A DNA stretch of 64,000 nucleotides from Mucilaginibacter sp. (GTDB taxonomy: Bacteria; Bacteroidota; Bacteroidia; Sphingobacteriales; Sphingobacteriaceae). A program made the translations under genes and the position numbers. The notes beneath the pieces are model-generated. The model searched no databases. It had not been told where the DNA came from and saw only the letters and a list, made by a program, of their open reading frames with translations. The DNA lies in NCBI RefSeq assembly GCF_028288205.1, contig NZ_JAQBOD010000016.1:1-64000 (forward strand), written 5' to 3'. The first letter of the stretch is position 1; every line of letters starts with the position of its first letter. This document shows, piece after piece, positions 12,107 to 57,129 of this stretch.

Positions 12107-14098
12107 TTACAATGGTGATCTTTCTGGTTTTTCAGGAGCCTCCGGCTTTTCCGGAACTTCTGGTACCGGCGCTGGCGGTACAGGGGCCTCAATTACTTCT
12201 TTGCCATCAATTTTTTTGATTTTTTTAAACTGTTTTATTTTTAGGTATTTCTTTGGTATTGGCGCATACTTGATCTTTGGATTATATACCGGCTCTTTTA
12301 TTTTAATTTCTGCCATCTTTTTTTTCCATTCAGGGCTGTCAAAGTATTTGCCCATATCTTCGCCGCTTTTCTGTATATCCTCTATTTGCTTTTTCCACTC
12401 GGGGCTATCATAGTATTTGCCCATGTCTTCGCCACTTTTCTGTATATCCTCAATTTGTTTTTTCCACTCAGGGCTGTCATAAAATTTGGCCATATCCTCG
12501 CCGCTTTTCTGCATTTCTTCTATATGCTTTTTCCATTCAGGGCTGTTAAACTGTTTAGCCATTTTTTCGCCTTGCAGTGCAACCAACTCTTGTTGCTTTT
12601 TAAACTGCTTGCTGTTAACCATTTTAGCCATCGCCATTGATTTCTCTACCAATACCTTTTGTTTCTGTTTCCATTCAGGGCTGTTAAATTTTTTGGCCAT
12701 TAGCAACCCTTGTTTTTTCATTAGTTCGGCTTGTTTTTTCCATTGGTCGCTTGTATATAATTTTTTCAAAGCGAACCGTGCAGAGTCATCCATTGCCATT
12801 TTTAAATCAACAGTATTACCTAAAAAATCGTTACGGTCTTCTACAGGTAGTTCATTTACAGAGTTGTATTCTTTCTTATTGCCTTTTTCGTCTTCAATTA
12901 CAATTTTATATTTTTTGTTTTTGATGGTGGTGTCATTTAGGCGGTTAAACCTGGTAGAGTCGTTATAATATTTAATACTCAAGCTTCTTTTATGCTTAAG
13001 TGGGGCAGCAGGCAAAGCAGGCGCCGCTACTGCAGGGGGAGCGCTGATAGCTGCTTTAATCATCTTTATGGCAGGGGCATTTTTAATAATTACCTTGCCA
13101 TTTTTAATTTCGGGGTTCAGCCAGGCTATGCTGCTAATACTACAGGTAAGGGCCAGTACGGTTATTAGTACGGGGCGTATATTTACGGTTTGTGTTTTAG
13201 TTTTCATGATGCGTTCAATTCTGTTTAACAATTCATACTTTTTTCTGGTAGCGGCAAGGGCCAGTTGCCACTGATGGTGTTTATTCTCCTCGAGTTTTAA
13301 AAGCGCTTGTGCATATATAAACGGACTACCGGTAACGTGCACAACTACGTCATCGCAGCAATTTTCTCTTTCTTCGTTAATAATTTTATTTACTAACCTG
13401 GCGAAAGGGTTAAAGAATAAAAGGATGCTCATAACCTGTTGTATAAAATTTAACAGGTAATCGTTCCTTTTAATATGGGCCAGTTCATGAAGCAATATGG
13501 CCTCAATTTCGTCGGTCGACAGGTAGCAGGTAATAGATAGCGGCAATAGGATAATTGGTTTAATAAAACCTGTAATACAGGGCACATCAACCCATTCGCT
13601 AAAAGCGGCTTGTACATTGTTTTTCACATCAAGCTTTGCGGATAGGCGTTTAATGGTGTTTTCAAAACCTGCATCACTAATATTTTGCCTTATACGGTAA
13701 ATGCTGTTCCAGGCAAGTGTTAATCTAAGTGTGTTAAATACTAAGCCAACAACATATAGCATTGTTAAGTAAGGCATATAATTAGATATGGTAAAGTAAA
13801 ACCGGTTAGCCGGCGCGCTTACCTCATGCATAATTGCAGGCAATGTTAATGGTGATATTTGCAGCGCCGTTGTTGATAGCCAGTTATAATTACCCAATTC
13901 TTTAAATAAGGTAACAATAAACCAGCCCAGCGTAATAGCAAGCGCGCTGTAGGCAACACGATATTTAACTGCCGATGACGTTGCCGGAAATGCCAGCACA
14001 AACAAGCGTAATGCTATATAAATAACTAACCCCTGCCACACCGAGTGGATAATGGTTATACCTAAAACCTGGCTGATGTTATAAAACAGATTTTCCAT
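12107..14098 (-). CDS. M56 family metallopeptidase (BlaR1/MecR1-like) with C-terminal 23-aa repeats
   Basis: Membrane zinc-peptidase sensor of 663 aa paired with the BlaI-type repressor just upstream. Membrane segments are at about residues 13-38, 50-66, 108-128, 215-235 and 308-327. The zinc motif is HELAH (204-208), with the downstream acidic NEERENCCDD (241-250). There is no penicillin-binding sensor domain. Instead residues about 448-594 hold seven copies of a 23-residue unit (consensus YDSPEWKKQIEDIQKSG plus EDMGKY), followed by a Pro/Glu tail (APVPPAPVPEVPEKP). The last copies are nearly identical at the DNA level. In the known family, peptidase activation leads to cleavage of BlaI; here the signal is unknown. 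Confidence 0.88.
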   Translation of the reverse strand: MENLFYNISQVLGITIIHSVWQGLVIYIALRLFVLAFPATSSAVKYRVAYSALAITLGWFIVTLFKELGNYNWLSTTALQISPLTLPAIMHEVSAPANRFYFTISNYMPYLTMLYVVGLVFNTLRLTLAWNSIYRIRQNISDAGFENTIKRLSAKLDVKNNVQAAFSEWVDVPCITGFIKPIILLPLSITCYLSTDEIEAILLHELAHIKRNDYLLNFIQQVMSILLFFNPFARLVNKIINEERENCCDDVVVHVTGSPFIYAQALLKLEENKHHQWQLALAATRKKYELLNRIERIMKTKTQTVNIRPVLITVLALTCSISSIAWLNPEIKNGKVIIKNAPAIKMIKAAISAPPAVAAPALPAAPLKHKRSLSIKYYNDSTRFNRLNDTTIKNKKYKIVIEDEKGNKKEYNSVNELPVEDRNDFLGNTVDLKMAMDDSARFALKKLYTSDQWKKQAELMKKQGLLMAKKFNSPEWKQKQKVLVEKSMAMAKMVNSKQFKKQQELVALQGEKMAKQFNSPEWKKHIEEMQKSGEDMAKFYDSPEWKKQIEDIQKSGEDMGKYYDSPEWKKQIEDIQKSGEDMGKYFDSPEWKKKMAEIKIKEPVYNPKIKYAPIPKKYLKIKQFKKIKKIDGKEVIEAPVPPAPVPEVPEKPEAPEKPERSPL

Positions 14099-14982: not shown

Positions 14983-16362
14983 TTATAAACCTGTAGTAAG
15001 TCTTCCTATAATCTGTTTAGCTGTAAGCTTCTCCTGCACGCCCGAAGTCATATCTTTAAAGGTAAGCATGCTGCTTTGCATTTCGTCACTGCCAATTACA
15101 ACCGTGTAAGGTATATTCTTATTATTGGCATAATCTAATTGTTTTTTGATTTTGGCGCCGGCAGGATAAAGTTCTGTGTTGATGTTATTATCGCGCAGCT
15201 GTTGTAATAACGGTAGGGCATACAGTTCACCATCCTTATCAAAACAACATATTAAAACCTGTGTACTTTGGTTGGCATCCGCCGGAAAAATATTAAGCTC
15301 TTCCATCACATCATAAATACGGTCGGCACCAAATGATATACCAACACCTGTTAGCCCCTTTAAGCCAAACATGCCGGTCAGATCATCATACCTTCCGCCG
15401 CCGCCAATACTGCCCATGGCAACCTCGTTGGTTTTAACTTCGAATATGGCGCCTGTGTAATAGTTCAGGCCACGGGCAAGGGTGATGTCTAATTCGATGG
15501 TGCCGTTTTGCAGTTTGAAGTTATCTATATAATTAAATACCTCTTCTATTTCATCGCATCCGGTTAGCCCAATTACAGAATCGGCAAGCGCGACGCGTAA
15601 ACTTTGCAGTTTTGTAGAGTTAGTACCTTCTAATAAAATAACCGGTTTTAATTTTTCAATGTCATCCGTTGTAAAGCCTTTTTCAAGTAGCTCTTTTATA
15701 ACATCATCCAGTCCAATTTTATCCAGTTTATCAATGGCTACAGTCAGGTCAATGATGTTATCAATTTTTCCTATAACTTCTGCTATTCCTGATAGGATTT
15801 TTCTATTATTAATTTTTATGCTAAAATCCTTTAATCCTAAACTACTTAAAGCCTCATCATAAATCAAAATAAACTCGGCCTCATTTAACAAAGAATCAGA
15901 TCCTACCACATCAGCATCGCATTGAAAAAACTCGCGGTAGCGCCCCTTCTGCGGCCTGTCTGCGCGCCAAACCGGCTGCACCTGGAAACGCTTGAAAGGG
16001 AAGGTGATCTCGTTTTGATGCTGTACTACGTAACGTGCGAAGGGAACAGTTAAGTCGTAACGCAGAGCTTTTTCAGAAATATCCTGAGTTATAAGTTGTG
16101 AGTTATGAGTTGTAAGTTTTTGTGGCTCGACCTTAGAAAGATAATCGCCACTATTCAATATCTTAAATATCAGCTTATCCCCTTCATCGCCATATTTTCC
16201 CATCAAGGTAGACAGGTTCTCCATCGACGGTGTTTCTATTTGCTGATAGCCATATTTGCGAAAAACGCCTTTAATGGTATCAAAAATAAAATTGCGTTTT
16301 ACCATTTCGGCAGGCGAAAAGTCGCGGGTTCCTTTAGGTACGGATGGTTTTATAGCGGCCAT
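14983..16362 (-). CDS. hisS: Histidine-tRNA ligase HisS
   Basis: Class II aminoacyl-tRNA synthetase, 459 aa from the ATG at 16362. Motif 1 region KPSVPKGTRDFSP opens the protein. Motif 2 is FQVQPVWRADRPQKGRYREF (about 127-146). The histidine-binding signature is ARGLNYYTGAIFE, and motif 3 is GVGISFGADRIYD. The C-terminal anticodon-binding domain (about 365-459) follows. The start was set by a TACATTTG promoter box 4 nt upstream of this ATG; the in-frame TTG 15 nt earlier lies in that box. Residues 81-93 (QKLTTHNSQLITQ) are encoded by a 35-nt run of heptamers that resembles intergenic repeats elsewhere in the window. Confidence 0.94.
   Translation of the reverse strand: MAAIKPSVPKGTRDFSPAEMVKRNFIFDTIKGVFRKYGYQQIETPSMENLSTLMGKYGDEGDKLIFKILNSGDYLSKVEPQKLTTHNSQLITQDISEKALRYDLTVPFARYVVQHQNEITFPFKRFQVQPVWRADRPQKGRYREFFQCDADVVGSDSLLNEAEFILIYDEALSSLGLKDFSIKINNRKILSGIAEVIGKIDNIIDLTVAIDKLDKIGLDDVIKELLEKGFTTDDIEKLKPVILLEGTNSTKLQSLRVALADSVIGLTGCDEIEEVFNYIDNFKLQNGTIELDITLARGLNYYTGAIFEVKTNEVAMGSIGGGGRYDDLTGMFGLKGLTGVGISFGADRIYDVMEELNIFPADANQSTQVLICCFDKDGELYALPLLQQLRDNNINTELYPAGAKIKKQLDYANNKNIPYTVVIGSDEMQSSMLTFKDMTSGVQEKLTAKQIIGRLTTGL
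16086..16120. repeat. Heptamer run inside the hisS coding region
   Basis: Five exact 7-base steps on the plus strand: GAGTTAT, AAGTTGT, GAGTTAT, GAGTTGT, AAGTTTT. On the minus strand the run is translated in hisS as residues about 81-93. Confidence 0.75.
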
Positions 16363-17330: not shown

Positions 17331-17678
17331 ATGGGAAAACTTATAGAAGATTTTGAGGCCTACCGCACCAAAATGAATGACAGGATAATGGAATCGTCAA
17401 ACACCAACATTAAACGATTCTTCGCTTTAGATACCACCACTTATGCCGATGGCGCGCTGGATGTAAAAACCAAGGAAATGCTGGGCCTGGTAGCATCAAT
17501 GGTGCTGCGTTGCGATGATTGTATTAAATACCACTTAGGCAAATGCCATGAAGCTGGCGTAAAGCATGATGAAATGAACGAGGTGTTTATGATAGCTAAT
17601 TTGGTTGGTGGGTCGATTGTTATTCCACATTATAGAAGAGCGGTAGAGTATTGGGATGAGTTGTGTTTGGAGTCTTAA
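17331..17678 (+). CDS. Carboxymuconolactone decarboxylase (AhpD-like) family protein
   Basis: 115-aa all-helical CMD-family protein. The AhpD-type redox motif is present as LRCDDCIKYHLGKCHEAG (about residues 62-79), with the CxxC pair and the following His, which suggests peroxidase or disulfide-reductase activity rather than lactone decarboxylation. Length is typical for a single-domain member. The last two codons (Glu-Ser) and the TAA stop belong to a heptamer repeat, so the C-terminus has been rewritten by the repeat or the repeat arose from it. An octamer run lies directly before the start. The partner protein is unknown. Confidence 0.87.
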   Translation: MGKLIEDFEAYRTKMNDRIMESSNTNIKRFFALDTTTYADGALDVKTKEMLGLVASMVLRCDDCIKYHLGKCHEAGVKHDEMNEVFMIANLVGGSIVIPHYRRAVEYWDELCLES

Positions 17679-18171
17679 GTCTGGAGTCTAAAGTCCTAAG
17701 TCTTTTACCTATTGGTTATTCAATATAAAATTGCGACTTTGTATTGTCAACCTAAGTCATTAAAAAATGAGCTCGTTTAGAGATTTGATCGCCTATAAAA
17801 AGTCATTTGCATTATCGATGGAAATTTTTTTCCTTACAAAAGGCTTTCCCAAAGAAGAAACTTACAGTCTTATTGACCAAATAAGGCGTTCGTCGAGGGC
17901 GGTTTTTGCTTGTATTGCAGAAGCTTACAAAAAGCGAAGATATCCTAATCATTTTGTTAGTAAACTTACAGACGCAGATATGGAAAATGGCGAAACCCAA
18001 TCCTGGCTTGATGCTTCATTGGCTTGTAGTTATATTACAAATGAAAAGTTTGTCGAATTAAATCAACAGGCCGAAGAAGTATCGCGTTTACTTACGTATA
18101 TGATAAACAATCCTGATAAATTTAAATAAAAATGACTCAAGACTTCAGACTCAAGACTTCAGACTTAAAAA
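17669..18171. repeat. Inverted pair of heptamer arms enclosing a four-helix-bundle gene
   Basis: Left arm 17669-17705: AGTCTTA, AGTCTGG, AGTCTAA, AGTCCTA, AGTCTTT. Right arm about 18135-18171: GACTCAA, GACTTCA, GACTCAA, GACTTCA, GACTTAA, which is the inverted form of the same word. Between them is the complete gene at 17767-18129. The left arm holds the stop codon of the preceding gene; the right arm is translated as the N-terminus of Tag. Confidence 0.7.
17767..18129 (+). CDS. Four-helix-bundle protein (23S rRNA IVP / S23 family)
   Basis: 120-aa helical protein of the S23/IVP family, relatives of which are encoded in 23S rRNA intervening sequences and, as Avd, in diversity-generating retroelements. 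The family hallmarks are clear: FPKEETYSLIDQIRRSSRAV (about residues 27-46), IAEAYKKRRYPNHFVSKLTD (about 50-69) and ENGETQSWLDASLAC (about 73-87). It is not in rRNA here; it sits alone between an AhpD-like gene and tag. Heptamer arms in inverted orientation flank it on both sides, which makes it look like cargo of a small element. The biochemical role of free-standing members is unknown; basic residues suggest nucleic-acid binding. Confidence 0.9.
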   Translation: MSSFRDLIAYKKSFALSMEIFFLTKGFPKEETYSLIDQIRRSSRAVFACIAEAYKKRRYPNHFVSKLTDADMENGETQSWLDASLACSYITNEKFVELNQQAEEVSRLLTYMINNPDKFK

Positions 18172-18707
18172 GATGCTCATGGCCCGGTACAGACCCGCTC
18201 TACCTAAAATATCACGACGAAGAATGGGGAAAAGTAACCCATGATGATAAAGTATTATTTGAGTTTTTAATACTCGAAGCAGCACAGGCCGGCTTAAGCT
18301 GGATAACCATTTTGCGAAGGCGCGAAGGCTATCGTAAGGCCTTCGCAAATTTTGATGTGCATAAAGTAGCCGCGTTTACTAATGAGGATGTGAAGCGTTT
18401 GATGCAGGATGCAGGCATTATCCGTAACCGGTTAAAAATCATCGCCGCTATTAAAAATGCCCAGCTGTTTTTAGAAGTGCAAAAGGAGTTTGGGTCGTTT
18501 GATAAATACCTGTACAGTTTTATGCCTGATAGTAAACCGATTATCAATAATTCCGGGATCACACCAGTTACCACCCCCATATCTGATGCCATAAGCAAGG
18601 ATATGAAAAAGCGGGGCTTTAAATTTTTTGGCAGTACCATTTGCTATGCGCACATGCAGGCAACGGGTATGGTTAATGACCACGTGCCGGGCTGTAGTTT
18701 TAAATAA
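18132..18707 (+). CDS. tag: DNA-3-methyladenine glycosylase I (Tag)
   Basis: Base-excision-repair glycosylase removing 3-methyladenine, 191 aa. The core begins at CSWPGTDPLYLKYHDEEWG (residues 16-34), which holds the first zinc-binding Cys and the substrate-pocket EEWG. SWITILRRREGYRKAFANFD follows, and the C-terminal zinc ligands are in ICYAHMQATGMVNDHVPGCS. The first 15 residues (MTQDFRLKTSDLKRC) are translated from the heptamer repeat and replace the very short N-terminus normal in this family; there is no other in-frame ATG before the core. The gene starts 2 nt after the four-helix-bundle gene's stop codon. Confidence 0.92.
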   Translation: MTQDFRLKTSDLKRCSWPGTDPLYLKYHDEEWGKVTHDDKVLFEFLILEAAQAGLSWITILRRREGYRKAFANFDVHKVAAFTNEDVKRLMQDAGIIRNRLKIIAAIKNAQLFLEVQKEFGSFDKYLYSFMPDSKPIINNSGITPVTTPISDAISKDMKKRGFKFFGSTICYAHMQATGMVNDHVPGCSFK

Positions 18708-18861
18708 CACTAATTGCACGAATTTTTTCGAATTACACGAATTAATGAGCTAATAAATGCCTTTCTTTAGTGGACATAAATGCTATTTTTGCGTAGATCA
18801 TTGTATGAATACGAAGCGAATTAGTAATTCGTGTAATTCGAAAAAATTCGTGCAATTAGTG
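18708..18861. repeat. Perfect 37-bp inverted repeat with 80-bp spacer
   Basis: Arm 18708-18744 (CACTAATTGCACGAATTTTT onwards) is the exact reverse complement of 18825-18861. The arms consist of AATTCG/AATTACACG-type words. The left arm follows the tag stop codon at once; the right arm ends 10 nt before the polA ATG. The spacer holds a promoter-like TATTTTTG. Confidence 0.85.
18762..18791 (+). promoter_or_regulatory. Candidate polA promoter inside the inverted-repeat spacer
   Basis: TTTC (18762-18765), an 18-nt gap, then TATTTTTG (18784-18791), a perfect TAnnTTTG box. Transcription from here would place the right 37-nt arm in the polA 5' leader without its partner. Confidence 0.45.
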
Positions 18862-26178: not shown

Positions 26179-26302
26179 ATGTGCAGATATGCAAATGTGC
26201 GTATGTGCAAATGATTTGTATGCATCACATTTACTATCTGGTTGTTAATTATTTACTTCATTAAGTATTTGCACATCTGCATATCTACGCATCTGCACAT
26301 CG
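26179..26302. repeat. Inverted pair of octamer arms (ATGTGCAG/ATGTGCAA words)
   Basis: Left arm 26179-26217 (ATGTGCAG, ATATGCAA, ATGTGCGT, ATGTGCAA) and right arm 26265-26302 (TTTGCACATCTGCATATCTA and on) are inverted relatives with a 47-nt spacer. They fill the space between the ybaB start and the stop of the serine hydrolase gene. Confidence 0.75.
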
Positions 26303-38505: not shown

Positions 38506-39027
38506 ATGATAACTATTATATCCGCAACCAACCGGCCCGGCAGCTCAACCCTTAAAGTGGCACGATATTACCAAAAAAGATTGCTTGAAACAGAGGTAGA
38601 AGCAGGAATGCTATCTTTAGCACAATTGCCAGCAAATTTATTAGAGACTGATCTATATGGAAAAAGGAGCGCCGAATTTCAAAAAATACAAGATATAGTT
38701 ACCGCGACCGATAAGTTTATCTTCATTATTCCTGAATATAATGGCAGCTTTCCGGGGGTGTTAAAGATTTTTATTGATGCCTGCTCTTTTCCTGAAAGCT
38801 TTTATGATAAAAAGGCCGCGCTTGTAGGGATCTCATCAGGCAAATATGGTAATATACGTGGCATAGACCATTTTACAGGCGTATGCCATTATTTGCATTT
38901 AAACATAATGCCTTTAAAACTGCATATAGCTAATATCAAAACAGAATTTAATGAATATAGCGACCTGTTTAAAGAGGATACGGTAAAGTTTACTAACGAG
39001 CAGATAGAGAAGTTTATTAAGTTTTAG
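38506..39027 (+). CDS. NAD(P)H-dependent FMN reductase family protein
   Basis: 173-aa flavodoxin-fold reductase. The FMN phosphate loop is ATNRPGSSTLKVARYY (residues 6-21). The flavin contact motif is FIIPEYNGSFPGVLKIFID (about 83-101), the classic PEYN-S signature. A later VGISSGKYGNIRG fits the conserved third loop. Typical members reduce FMN, quinones or azo/chromate compounds; the substrate here is unknown. Its TAG stop codon is the first base triplet of the heptamer run at 39027. The ATG is directly preceded by an octamer arm. Confidence 0.9.
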   Translation: MITIISATNRPGSSTLKVARYYQKRLLETEVEAGMLSLAQLPANLLETDLYGKRSAEFQKIQDIVTATDKFIFIIPEYNGSFPGVLKIFIDACSFPESFYDKKAALVGISSGKYGNIRGIDHFTGVCHYLHLNIMPLKLHIANIKTEFNEYSDLFKEDTVKFTNEQIEKFIKF

Positions 39028-39137
39028 AGATTAAAGATTAAAGATTAAAGATTAAAGATTAAAGGTACATTATGTTAAGTTGGATATAATTATCAAAAAG
39101 ACAAGCCTAATCTTTAATCTCTAATTAACTAATCTTT
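39027..39137. repeat. Inverted pair of heptamer arms (AGATTAA word)
   Basis: Left arm 39027-39066 is five near-perfect AGATTAA units. Right arm 39105-39137 is TAATCTT, TAATCTC, TAATTAAC, TAATCTT, the inverted relative. The spacer is 38 nt. The pair fills most of the space between two convergent genes and could act as a bidirectional terminator. Confidence 0.8.
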
Positions 39138-56976: not shown

Positions 56977-57129
56977 GGCGCGCCGTTTACTCACCCCGGC
57001 GTTGCTTCGCTCGCCGACCCTCTTCGCCTTTGGCGGAAAGAGGGTAACCCGAATTAAAAACCCTCTTTCCCGCTTGCGGAAGAGAGGGTGGTCCAGCGAA
57101 GCGTAGACCGGGTGAGTAAACGGCGCGCG
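56977..57129. repeat. REP-like element C (head-to-head half elements)
   Basis: GGCGCGCCGTTTACTCACCC (56977-56996), hairpin ACCCTCTTCGCCTTTGGCGG.. (57016-57046), hairpin ACCCTCTTTCCCGCTTGCGG.. (57060-57089) and GGGTGAGTAAACGGCGCGC (57110-57128), the inverted form of the start. The cleanest copy in the window, between divergent units. Confidence 0.8.

Follow-up and report, generated by a model that had tools for sequence, protein, structure and literature searches.

Why a small four-helix-bundle gene stands between two runs of one heptamer in opposite orientation, with both runs reaching into the neighboring genes, is the question raised by a locus in Mucilaginibacter sp. The window, by which we mean the whole 64,000-nt stretch of contig NZ_JAQBOD010000016.1 that was analyzed, contains the following features at this locus:

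17331-17678, plus strand: AhpD/CMD-family gene, the upstream neighbor, with its stop codon inside the left arm
17666-17706, plus strand: left arm, an AGTCTNN heptamer array
17767-18129, plus strand: IVP/S23 four-helix-bundle gene, 120 aa (PF05635, 101.5 bits; model pLDDT 97.6)
18130-18170, minus strand: right arm, the left-arm heptamer in opposite orientation, inside the opening codons of tag
18132-18707, plus strand: tag (DNA-3-methyladenine glycosylase I), the downstream neighbor

A sequence-only reading of this locus had described an S23-family gene between inverted heptamer arms that are fused to both neighbors, with no rRNA present. We confirmed this layout. The arms are 41 nt each, 80% complementary, 423 nt apart and of period 7, and they scored 42 when the left flank was aligned by Smith-Waterman with the reverse complement of the right flank (300 nt each); only one of 66 other window ORFs of at least 100 aa reached a score of 28, and that one scored 30. 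The fusion to the neighbors is as listed, the right arm lying within approximately the first 13 codons of tag. An Rfam search at gathering score, covering 3.3 kb around each of the seven IVP genes of this genome, matched no family and so detected no rRNA.

The window protein scored 101.5 bits against PF05635, well above the cut-off of 33.8, which places it in the IVP/S23 family; its score against bAvd was 32.4 bits, under the cut-off. In a Foldseek search the structural model aligned with 2gsc (TMq 0.85-0.89), 2rld (0.78-0.82), and then Avd 4dwl, so that the modeled protein has the fold of the pentamer subunit, the pentamer state itself being predicted. The Pfam and NCBIfam models that matched were IVP, bAvd, four helix bundle protein, two hypothetical-protein subfamilies, and Avd, with no transposase model among them, and no catalytic domain or motif was found in IVP by Pfam, NCBIfam, or Foldseek. 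When this genome was searched for bAvd paralogues, the window gene alone matched, below the cut-off.

The sequence-only reading had also pointed to the reverse transcriptase that Avd binds in DGRs. Avd is homologous in fold to IVP (4dwl), with weak bAvd and Avd HMM scores for the window protein. IVP genes were present in all 31 genomes examined (1 to 12 each), whereas PF00078 (RVT_1) had no match in 14 of these 31, namely this genome (95% complete, 0 matches) and 13 others. The reverse transcriptase of a DGR is thus missing from the matches in this genome, and we dropped dependence on such an enzyme.

Arms around IVP genes are the rule and not a coincidence. At a Smith-Waterman threshold of 28, used throughout, all seven IVP genes of this genome had inverted short-period arms, with seven different repeats. 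Over this genome and its relatives, arms were observed at 91 of 109 IVP genes (18 lay below the threshold) as against 14 of 327 swapped flanks, a count in which AhpD-tag orthologues are each included, as are two overlapping readings of one locus. Arms were also seen, among the matches listed, at 62 of 92 IVP genes in named genomes (30 below the threshold) and at 14 of 19 in viral contigs, compared with 15 of 333 swapped flanks for these two sets together. Genes less than 150 nt from a contig end and identical copies had been removed from all three of these surveys. The named-genome set is mostly Bacteroidota, with three Clostridia contigs and one Peregrinibacteria contig. Plasmids gave arms at 12 of 15 loci, 13 of the 15 being cyanobacterial; this figure comes from 15 of 32 records and is one without a swapped-flank control. 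The expected enrichment around family members was therefore borne out. Two short loci, L020 and L034, were omitted before counting.

Both arms face inward with identical sequence, as transposon ends do. Among 101 de-duplicated loci, the best period was 7 in 73 and 8 in 16, and the left arm contained more AG than CT in 91. (The 101- and 85-locus sets are de-duplicated, with an arm score of at least 28 and a protein of 91-169 aa, so that one gene of this genome, L007, drops out.) In the openly licensed PMC literature, we found no paper on heptamer arms around free-standing IVP genes and no role assigned to such genes. In three of the cyanobacterial plasmids (L264, L269, and L272), the IVP gene lies inside a CRISPR operon, as cas6-IVP-cas4 in two and cas10-IVP-cmr3 in one, and a figure legend on CRISPR-linked genes in PMC10910872 carries the label "23S rRNA IVP"; co-insertion may explain this link.

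We compared arms with proteins at loci whose flanking genes differ. Below 45% protein identity, arm similarity stayed at the baseline of 0.26-0.29, but it rose to 0.58 at 65-70% identity and to 0.80 at 70-80%. Among 85 independent loci (median aligned arm, 31 nt), the 33 pairs with at least 60% protein identity had a mean arm similarity of 0.654 as against 0.281 overall, a value reached by 0 of 2,000 permutations, whose maximum was 0.359. Paralogues within this genome (15 pairs from six genes) remained at baseline, 0.292, so the match of protein to repeat is not due to genome composition. Related IVPs at unrelated loci share a repeat, which suggests that the repeat travels with the protein and that the two are paired.

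A second locus of the window's clade was found in three genomes (L421, L422, and L426), where the IVPs are 81-83% identical to that of the window and have AGTCT arms; the flanks of these three loci resemble one another, not AhpD-tag. One genome, G005, contains both loci, with copies that are 85% identical, the second carrying two internal stops. The window-clade unit thus appears to have moved between loci. No near-identical copies were caught at different places, the IVPs of this genome being at most 37% identical (six of seven compared), and the empty sites, which lie between genes, have diverged too far to fix the element ends or target duplications. Of the small mobile unit envisaged earlier, the gene with its inverted short-period arms stands as observed, and mobility is suggested by the second locus and by the repeat shared across unrelated loci.

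At AhpD-tag itself, the AGTCT element was present in 14 of 70 loci examined, these 70 having been read out of 128 genomes with a match, and two of the 14 were broken (L041 and L292). The IVPs at AhpD-tag form one clade (support 98/94) that splits as the Tag tree does, with modest support (64/82); this tree holds 48 loci, after three short Tag rows (L052, L059, and L285) were dropped. Loci with gene-less remnants of another repeat fall between the two groups that carry the AGTCT element. Judging from these trees, the AhpD-tag element appears to be old and vertically inherited, with many losses. The sequence-only reading had named AhpD-tag loci with arms that never held the gene as evidence against itself, and loci with arms minus the gene were indeed found, at five of the 48 Tag-tree loci. 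Their arms are built of another repeat, of AGTTGGC type, and they fit gene-less derivatives like those seen elsewhere in this genome. These loci (L066, L282, L294, L297, and L305) carry inverted AGTTGGC/AGTTTGC arms at the site that the AGTCT element occupies in other species. Separately, we observed the AGTTGGC/AGTTTGC repeat at L033 and L036, the outside IVPs that lie nearest in the tree. At L423 and L425, a glyoxalase-type gene replaces AhpD beside the IVP-tag unit, with the order inverted and the left arm at the breakpoint; these arms may be former inversion sites.

That reading had further suggested that the protein "recognises or writes" the repeat. The pairing described above is in keeping with recognition; writing found no support, since orthologous left arms are alike at 0.50 and right arms at 0.69, as against 0.47 between the two arms of one element. 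Same-side likeness among orthologues that equals or exceeds the likeness within an element fits vertical descent.

The repeats also occur without the gene. This genome contained 52 AGTCT-array hits (six of them the window element's own arms) compared with 2 in the control, and 138 AAAGGT hits compared with 0; these counts, like those for the GATGTGCA pattern and for the other genomes below, include overlapping hits within one array. When 14 gene-less AGTCT places were fetched, none had a match to the window IVP, and nine formed hairpins (arm score at least 30) with loops of 7-26 nt. Gene-less repeats of other types lie in the window:

26179-26300, no strand assigned: gene-less inverted octamer pair of GATGTGCA type, with its right edge 4 nt from a stop codon
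42811-42967, no strand assigned: gene-less inverted octamer pair of GATGTGCA type, with no long-ORF stop codon nearby
39023-39069, plus strand: solo heptamer array GATTAAA, by eye of the type that flanks L001, an IVP gene of this genome
45737-45764, plus strand: solo heptamer array AAAGGTA, of the type that flanks L002, another IVP gene of this genome

The pair at 26179-26300 is a probable mini-element of another repeat family. There are 34 GATGTGCA places in this genome, 10 of which are inverted pairs; no cognate IVP for the octamer was found in this genome, and it does flank IVPs of other species (L125 and L126). Four more repeats were seen in the window. Between the tag stop codon and polA, at 18708-18861, a 37-nt inverted repeat of perfect complementarity (AATTCGTG-type, period 8-9), its halves 80 nt apart, probably represents another gene-less repeat family. 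A heptamer array at 16085-16118 lies within the hisS coding sequence, where it adds LTTHNSQLITQ and is tolerated in an essential enzyme. Positions 56978-57128 hold a G+C-rich inverted repeat of 46 nt (83% complementary, 59-nt spacer) that is unlike the heptamer families, and positions 12321-12546 hold a 69-bp tandem repeat of 3.3 copies in the coding region of a minus-strand ORF of 663 aa.

We then followed repeat counts across 149 genomes of the same genus. All 21 genomes with the window's IVP clade (at least 77% identity) held at least 22 AGTCT hits, with a median of 66, as against a median of 6 in the 126 genomes without it, 36 of which had zero; this comparison leaves out G118 and G132, whose genes are broken and which the adjusted regression scores as without the AGTCT-IVP. 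Likewise, the 32 genomes with the AAAGGT-IVP clade had a median of 53.5 AAAGGT hits compared with 11 in the others. The two repeat counts correlate at 0.57 (149 genomes). Without adjustment, the AGTCT median was 61 in genomes with the AGTCT-IVP alone, 23 in those with the AAAGGT-IVP alone, and 4.5 in those with neither; for AAAGGT, the median was 50 in genomes with the AAAGGT-IVP alone, 21 in those with the AGTCT-IVP alone, and 10 in those with neither. After adjustment for the count of the other repeat, the own-IVP terms gave t values of 5.4 and 5.5 and the other-IVP terms -1.9 and -1.4, values that overstate independence because the 149 genomes are related. After adjustment, each of the two repeats thus seems to become commoner where its own IVP clade occurs, and not where the other's does. 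There were contrary cases: G045 and G111 had 285 and 329 AGTCT hits, yet at E 1e-30 the window's IVP matched nothing in either.

On 73 of the 88 sides that could be tested, no more than 15 nt separated the outer arm edge from the neighbor's stop codon, as against a fraction of 0.15 (by length) or 0.56 (each gap once) predicted by random placement in control gaps. Among 82 loci with both neighbors, insertions between co-directional genes followed the operon in 62 of 68 cases and opposed it in 6 (p 8e-13). The nine gene-less AGTCT hairpins with an arm score of at least 30 were similarly placed, six within 11 nt and seven within 15 nt of a stop codon, as was one of the two octamer hairpins of the window (4 nt). 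The arms may themselves supply stop codons: 7 mod 3 is 1, so a stop inside the repeat reaches every frame within three units.

Conservation was compared in 12 of the 14 AhpD-tag elements (66 pairs; the broken L041 and L292 were left out), with arm borders set by a simple motif rule. At 80-85% IVP identity (37 pairs), the values were 0.32 for fourfold-like sites, 0.38 for the spacer, 0.50 for the left arm, and 0.68 for the right arm, which is partly coding (tag). The arms are conserved where synonymous sites are saturated. That protein and arms have both been kept argues for a function after insertion, and the strong conservation of the protein is as compatible with a host role as with a selfish one.

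The link that the sequence-only reading drew to 23S rRNA intervening sequences (IVSs) was upheld by heptamers in two of them. Passages of Warrier et al. (2016; PMC4990558) describe tandem heptamers beside the ORF of the Coxiella IVS, a 28-bp terminal stem, and excision by RNase III, and call the origin of IVSs unclear. We found by Rfam that an IVP locus on an Azospirillum plasmid lies inside 23S rRNA, with approximately two heptamers in the left arm, which continues into the beginning of the ORF, and approximately four in the right arm. The window element shares with IVSs the S23 family and an ORF between inverted arms with heptamers. However, an IVS sits in rRNA, whereas the window unit sits between protein genes, and its repeat is clade-specific and scattered as gene-less hairpins. 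Given the heptamers of Coxiella and Azospirillum, classical IVSs look like copies of this unit at one of its landing sites (one IVS sequence examined), and the best reading of these sequences is that 23S rRNA IVSs would be a special case of the IVP unit.

REP/RAYT systems (REPtrons) consist of a single gene between inverted repeats together with many gene-less cognate palindromes, and RAYT is an HUH Y1 transposase. The window's repeat has the same layout of a flanked gene and dispersed gene-less cognate palindromes, and another repeat has the palindromes as well. In contrast to RAYT, IVP is a four-helix bundle without a known transposase fold and no HUH Y1 enzyme, and the ends of the IVP unit are arrays of 7-nt units; since the proteins are unrelated, the unit is REP/RAYT-like but no member of that group. 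Passages of another paper report TAACTGA heptamer repeats in Beggiatoaceae, cyanobacteria, and some Bacteroidetes as intergenic arrays of unexplained origin (PMC4679880). The reverse complement of TAACTGA fits the AGNNNNN of IVP arms, and we considered such arrays as solo arms of IVP elements. This was negative: 80 of 104 (TAACTGA)3 stretches in viral contigs yielded a single IVP gene, which lay more than 400 nt from the array. A known anti-phage defense system was rejected, as PADLOC returned 0 families for three IVPs of this genome at E<=1. The protein family and the IVS form were already known; we did not find the clade-specific repeat code, the dispersed cognate hairpins, or the stop-codon placement in the openly licensed PMC literature.

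We consider it probable that the window carries one copy of a widespread mobile unit, made up of an IVP/S23 gene and of inward-facing, clade-specific arrays of 6-8 nt (mostly 7 nt) units that form its ends; the protein would bind its matched repeat, and the unit would spread in a REP/RAYT-like way and settle at stop codons. The pair of gene and repeat looks like a mobile element of an unrecognized type, akin to the inserts of rRNA genes, and the best reading of the sequence comparisons is a putatively mobile, REP/RAYT-like unit of paired gene and repeat, built on a protein without a known transposase fold. IVP, a pentamer in a solved relative, would bind tandem AGNNNNN units, and by binding its own units, protein and repeat would remain matched. 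Recognition would then spread or maintain, in cis or in trans, the cassette and the gene-less hairpins that share its repeat, much as in REP/RAYT systems. Copies would settle beside stop codons in operons, along the direction of transcription, at sites where the transcript tolerates the unit: in an operon just past a stop codon, or in a loop of 23S rRNA. Tolerance may come from processing of the stem, as in 23S rRNA intervening sequences. A bolder version, held tentatively and rated somewhat below an even chance, makes the IVP/S23 proteins mobilizers of a new class of mobile element, whose pentamer would read AGNNNNN at approximately one heptamer per subunit and move cassette and hairpins to operon stop codons, possibly at the RNA level, with no domain known from transposases, recombinases, or reverse transcriptases; the IVSs of 23S rRNA would be members that landed there.

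The main rival is a non-mobile RNA-processing cassette adopted by the host, in which the arm stem is cut in the operon transcript, IVP binds or regulates, the clade-specific repeats serve regulation, and spread is passive. The 62:6 operon orientation, the position at stop codons, and the purifying selection on protein and arms would all agree with this, as would the predicted RNA fold of the window element (-134.5 kcal/mol, z -5.5) and the excision of the Coxiella IVS by RNase III described in PMC4990558. However, arm mismatches had no G-U sense bias (90 sense-type versus 114 antisense-type; p=0.11, 101 loci), so that the wobble test gave no sense-strand signature of RNA-level pairing, and processing leaves unexplained both the number of gene-less hairpins that tracks the cognate IVP and the repeats common to unrelated loci. 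We regard such a cassette as rather unlikely.

Doubtful to a greater degree is an IVP that is a passenger between two hairpins, while an unlinked enzyme (a transposase, an integrase, or a reverse transcriptase) moves the repeats. The protein has no catalytic domain that we found, gene-less arrays outnumber genes, and some genomes have arrays and no match to the cognate IVP, all of which a passenger would explain; yet repeat counts track their own IVP clade and not the other's after adjustment, and a reverse transcriptase as the mover is at odds with the 14 of 31 IVP-bearing genomes in which RVT_1 had no match. The heptamers might instead have arisen by local expansion of sequence that the host already had where the element inserted, such as the natural tag start ATGACTMAAGACTTAA, with an IVP that has no sequence preference. 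Element-free tag starts (L042 and L055) do resemble the heptamer, and target-derived heptamers were the first idea to come from the AhpD-tag alignment. That idea is out, because related IVPs keep the same repeat amid different flanks, and the repeat is dispersed through the genome; we hold local expansion to be very improbable.

Because one IVP clade goes with one repeat, binding assays can directly test the idea of a mobile unit with a matched repeat. A protein-repeat code, if true, would give free-standing IVP genes a role, would explain at least some of the scattered heptamer and octamer repeats of Bacteroidota genomes, and would give 23S rRNA intervening sequences a parent family.
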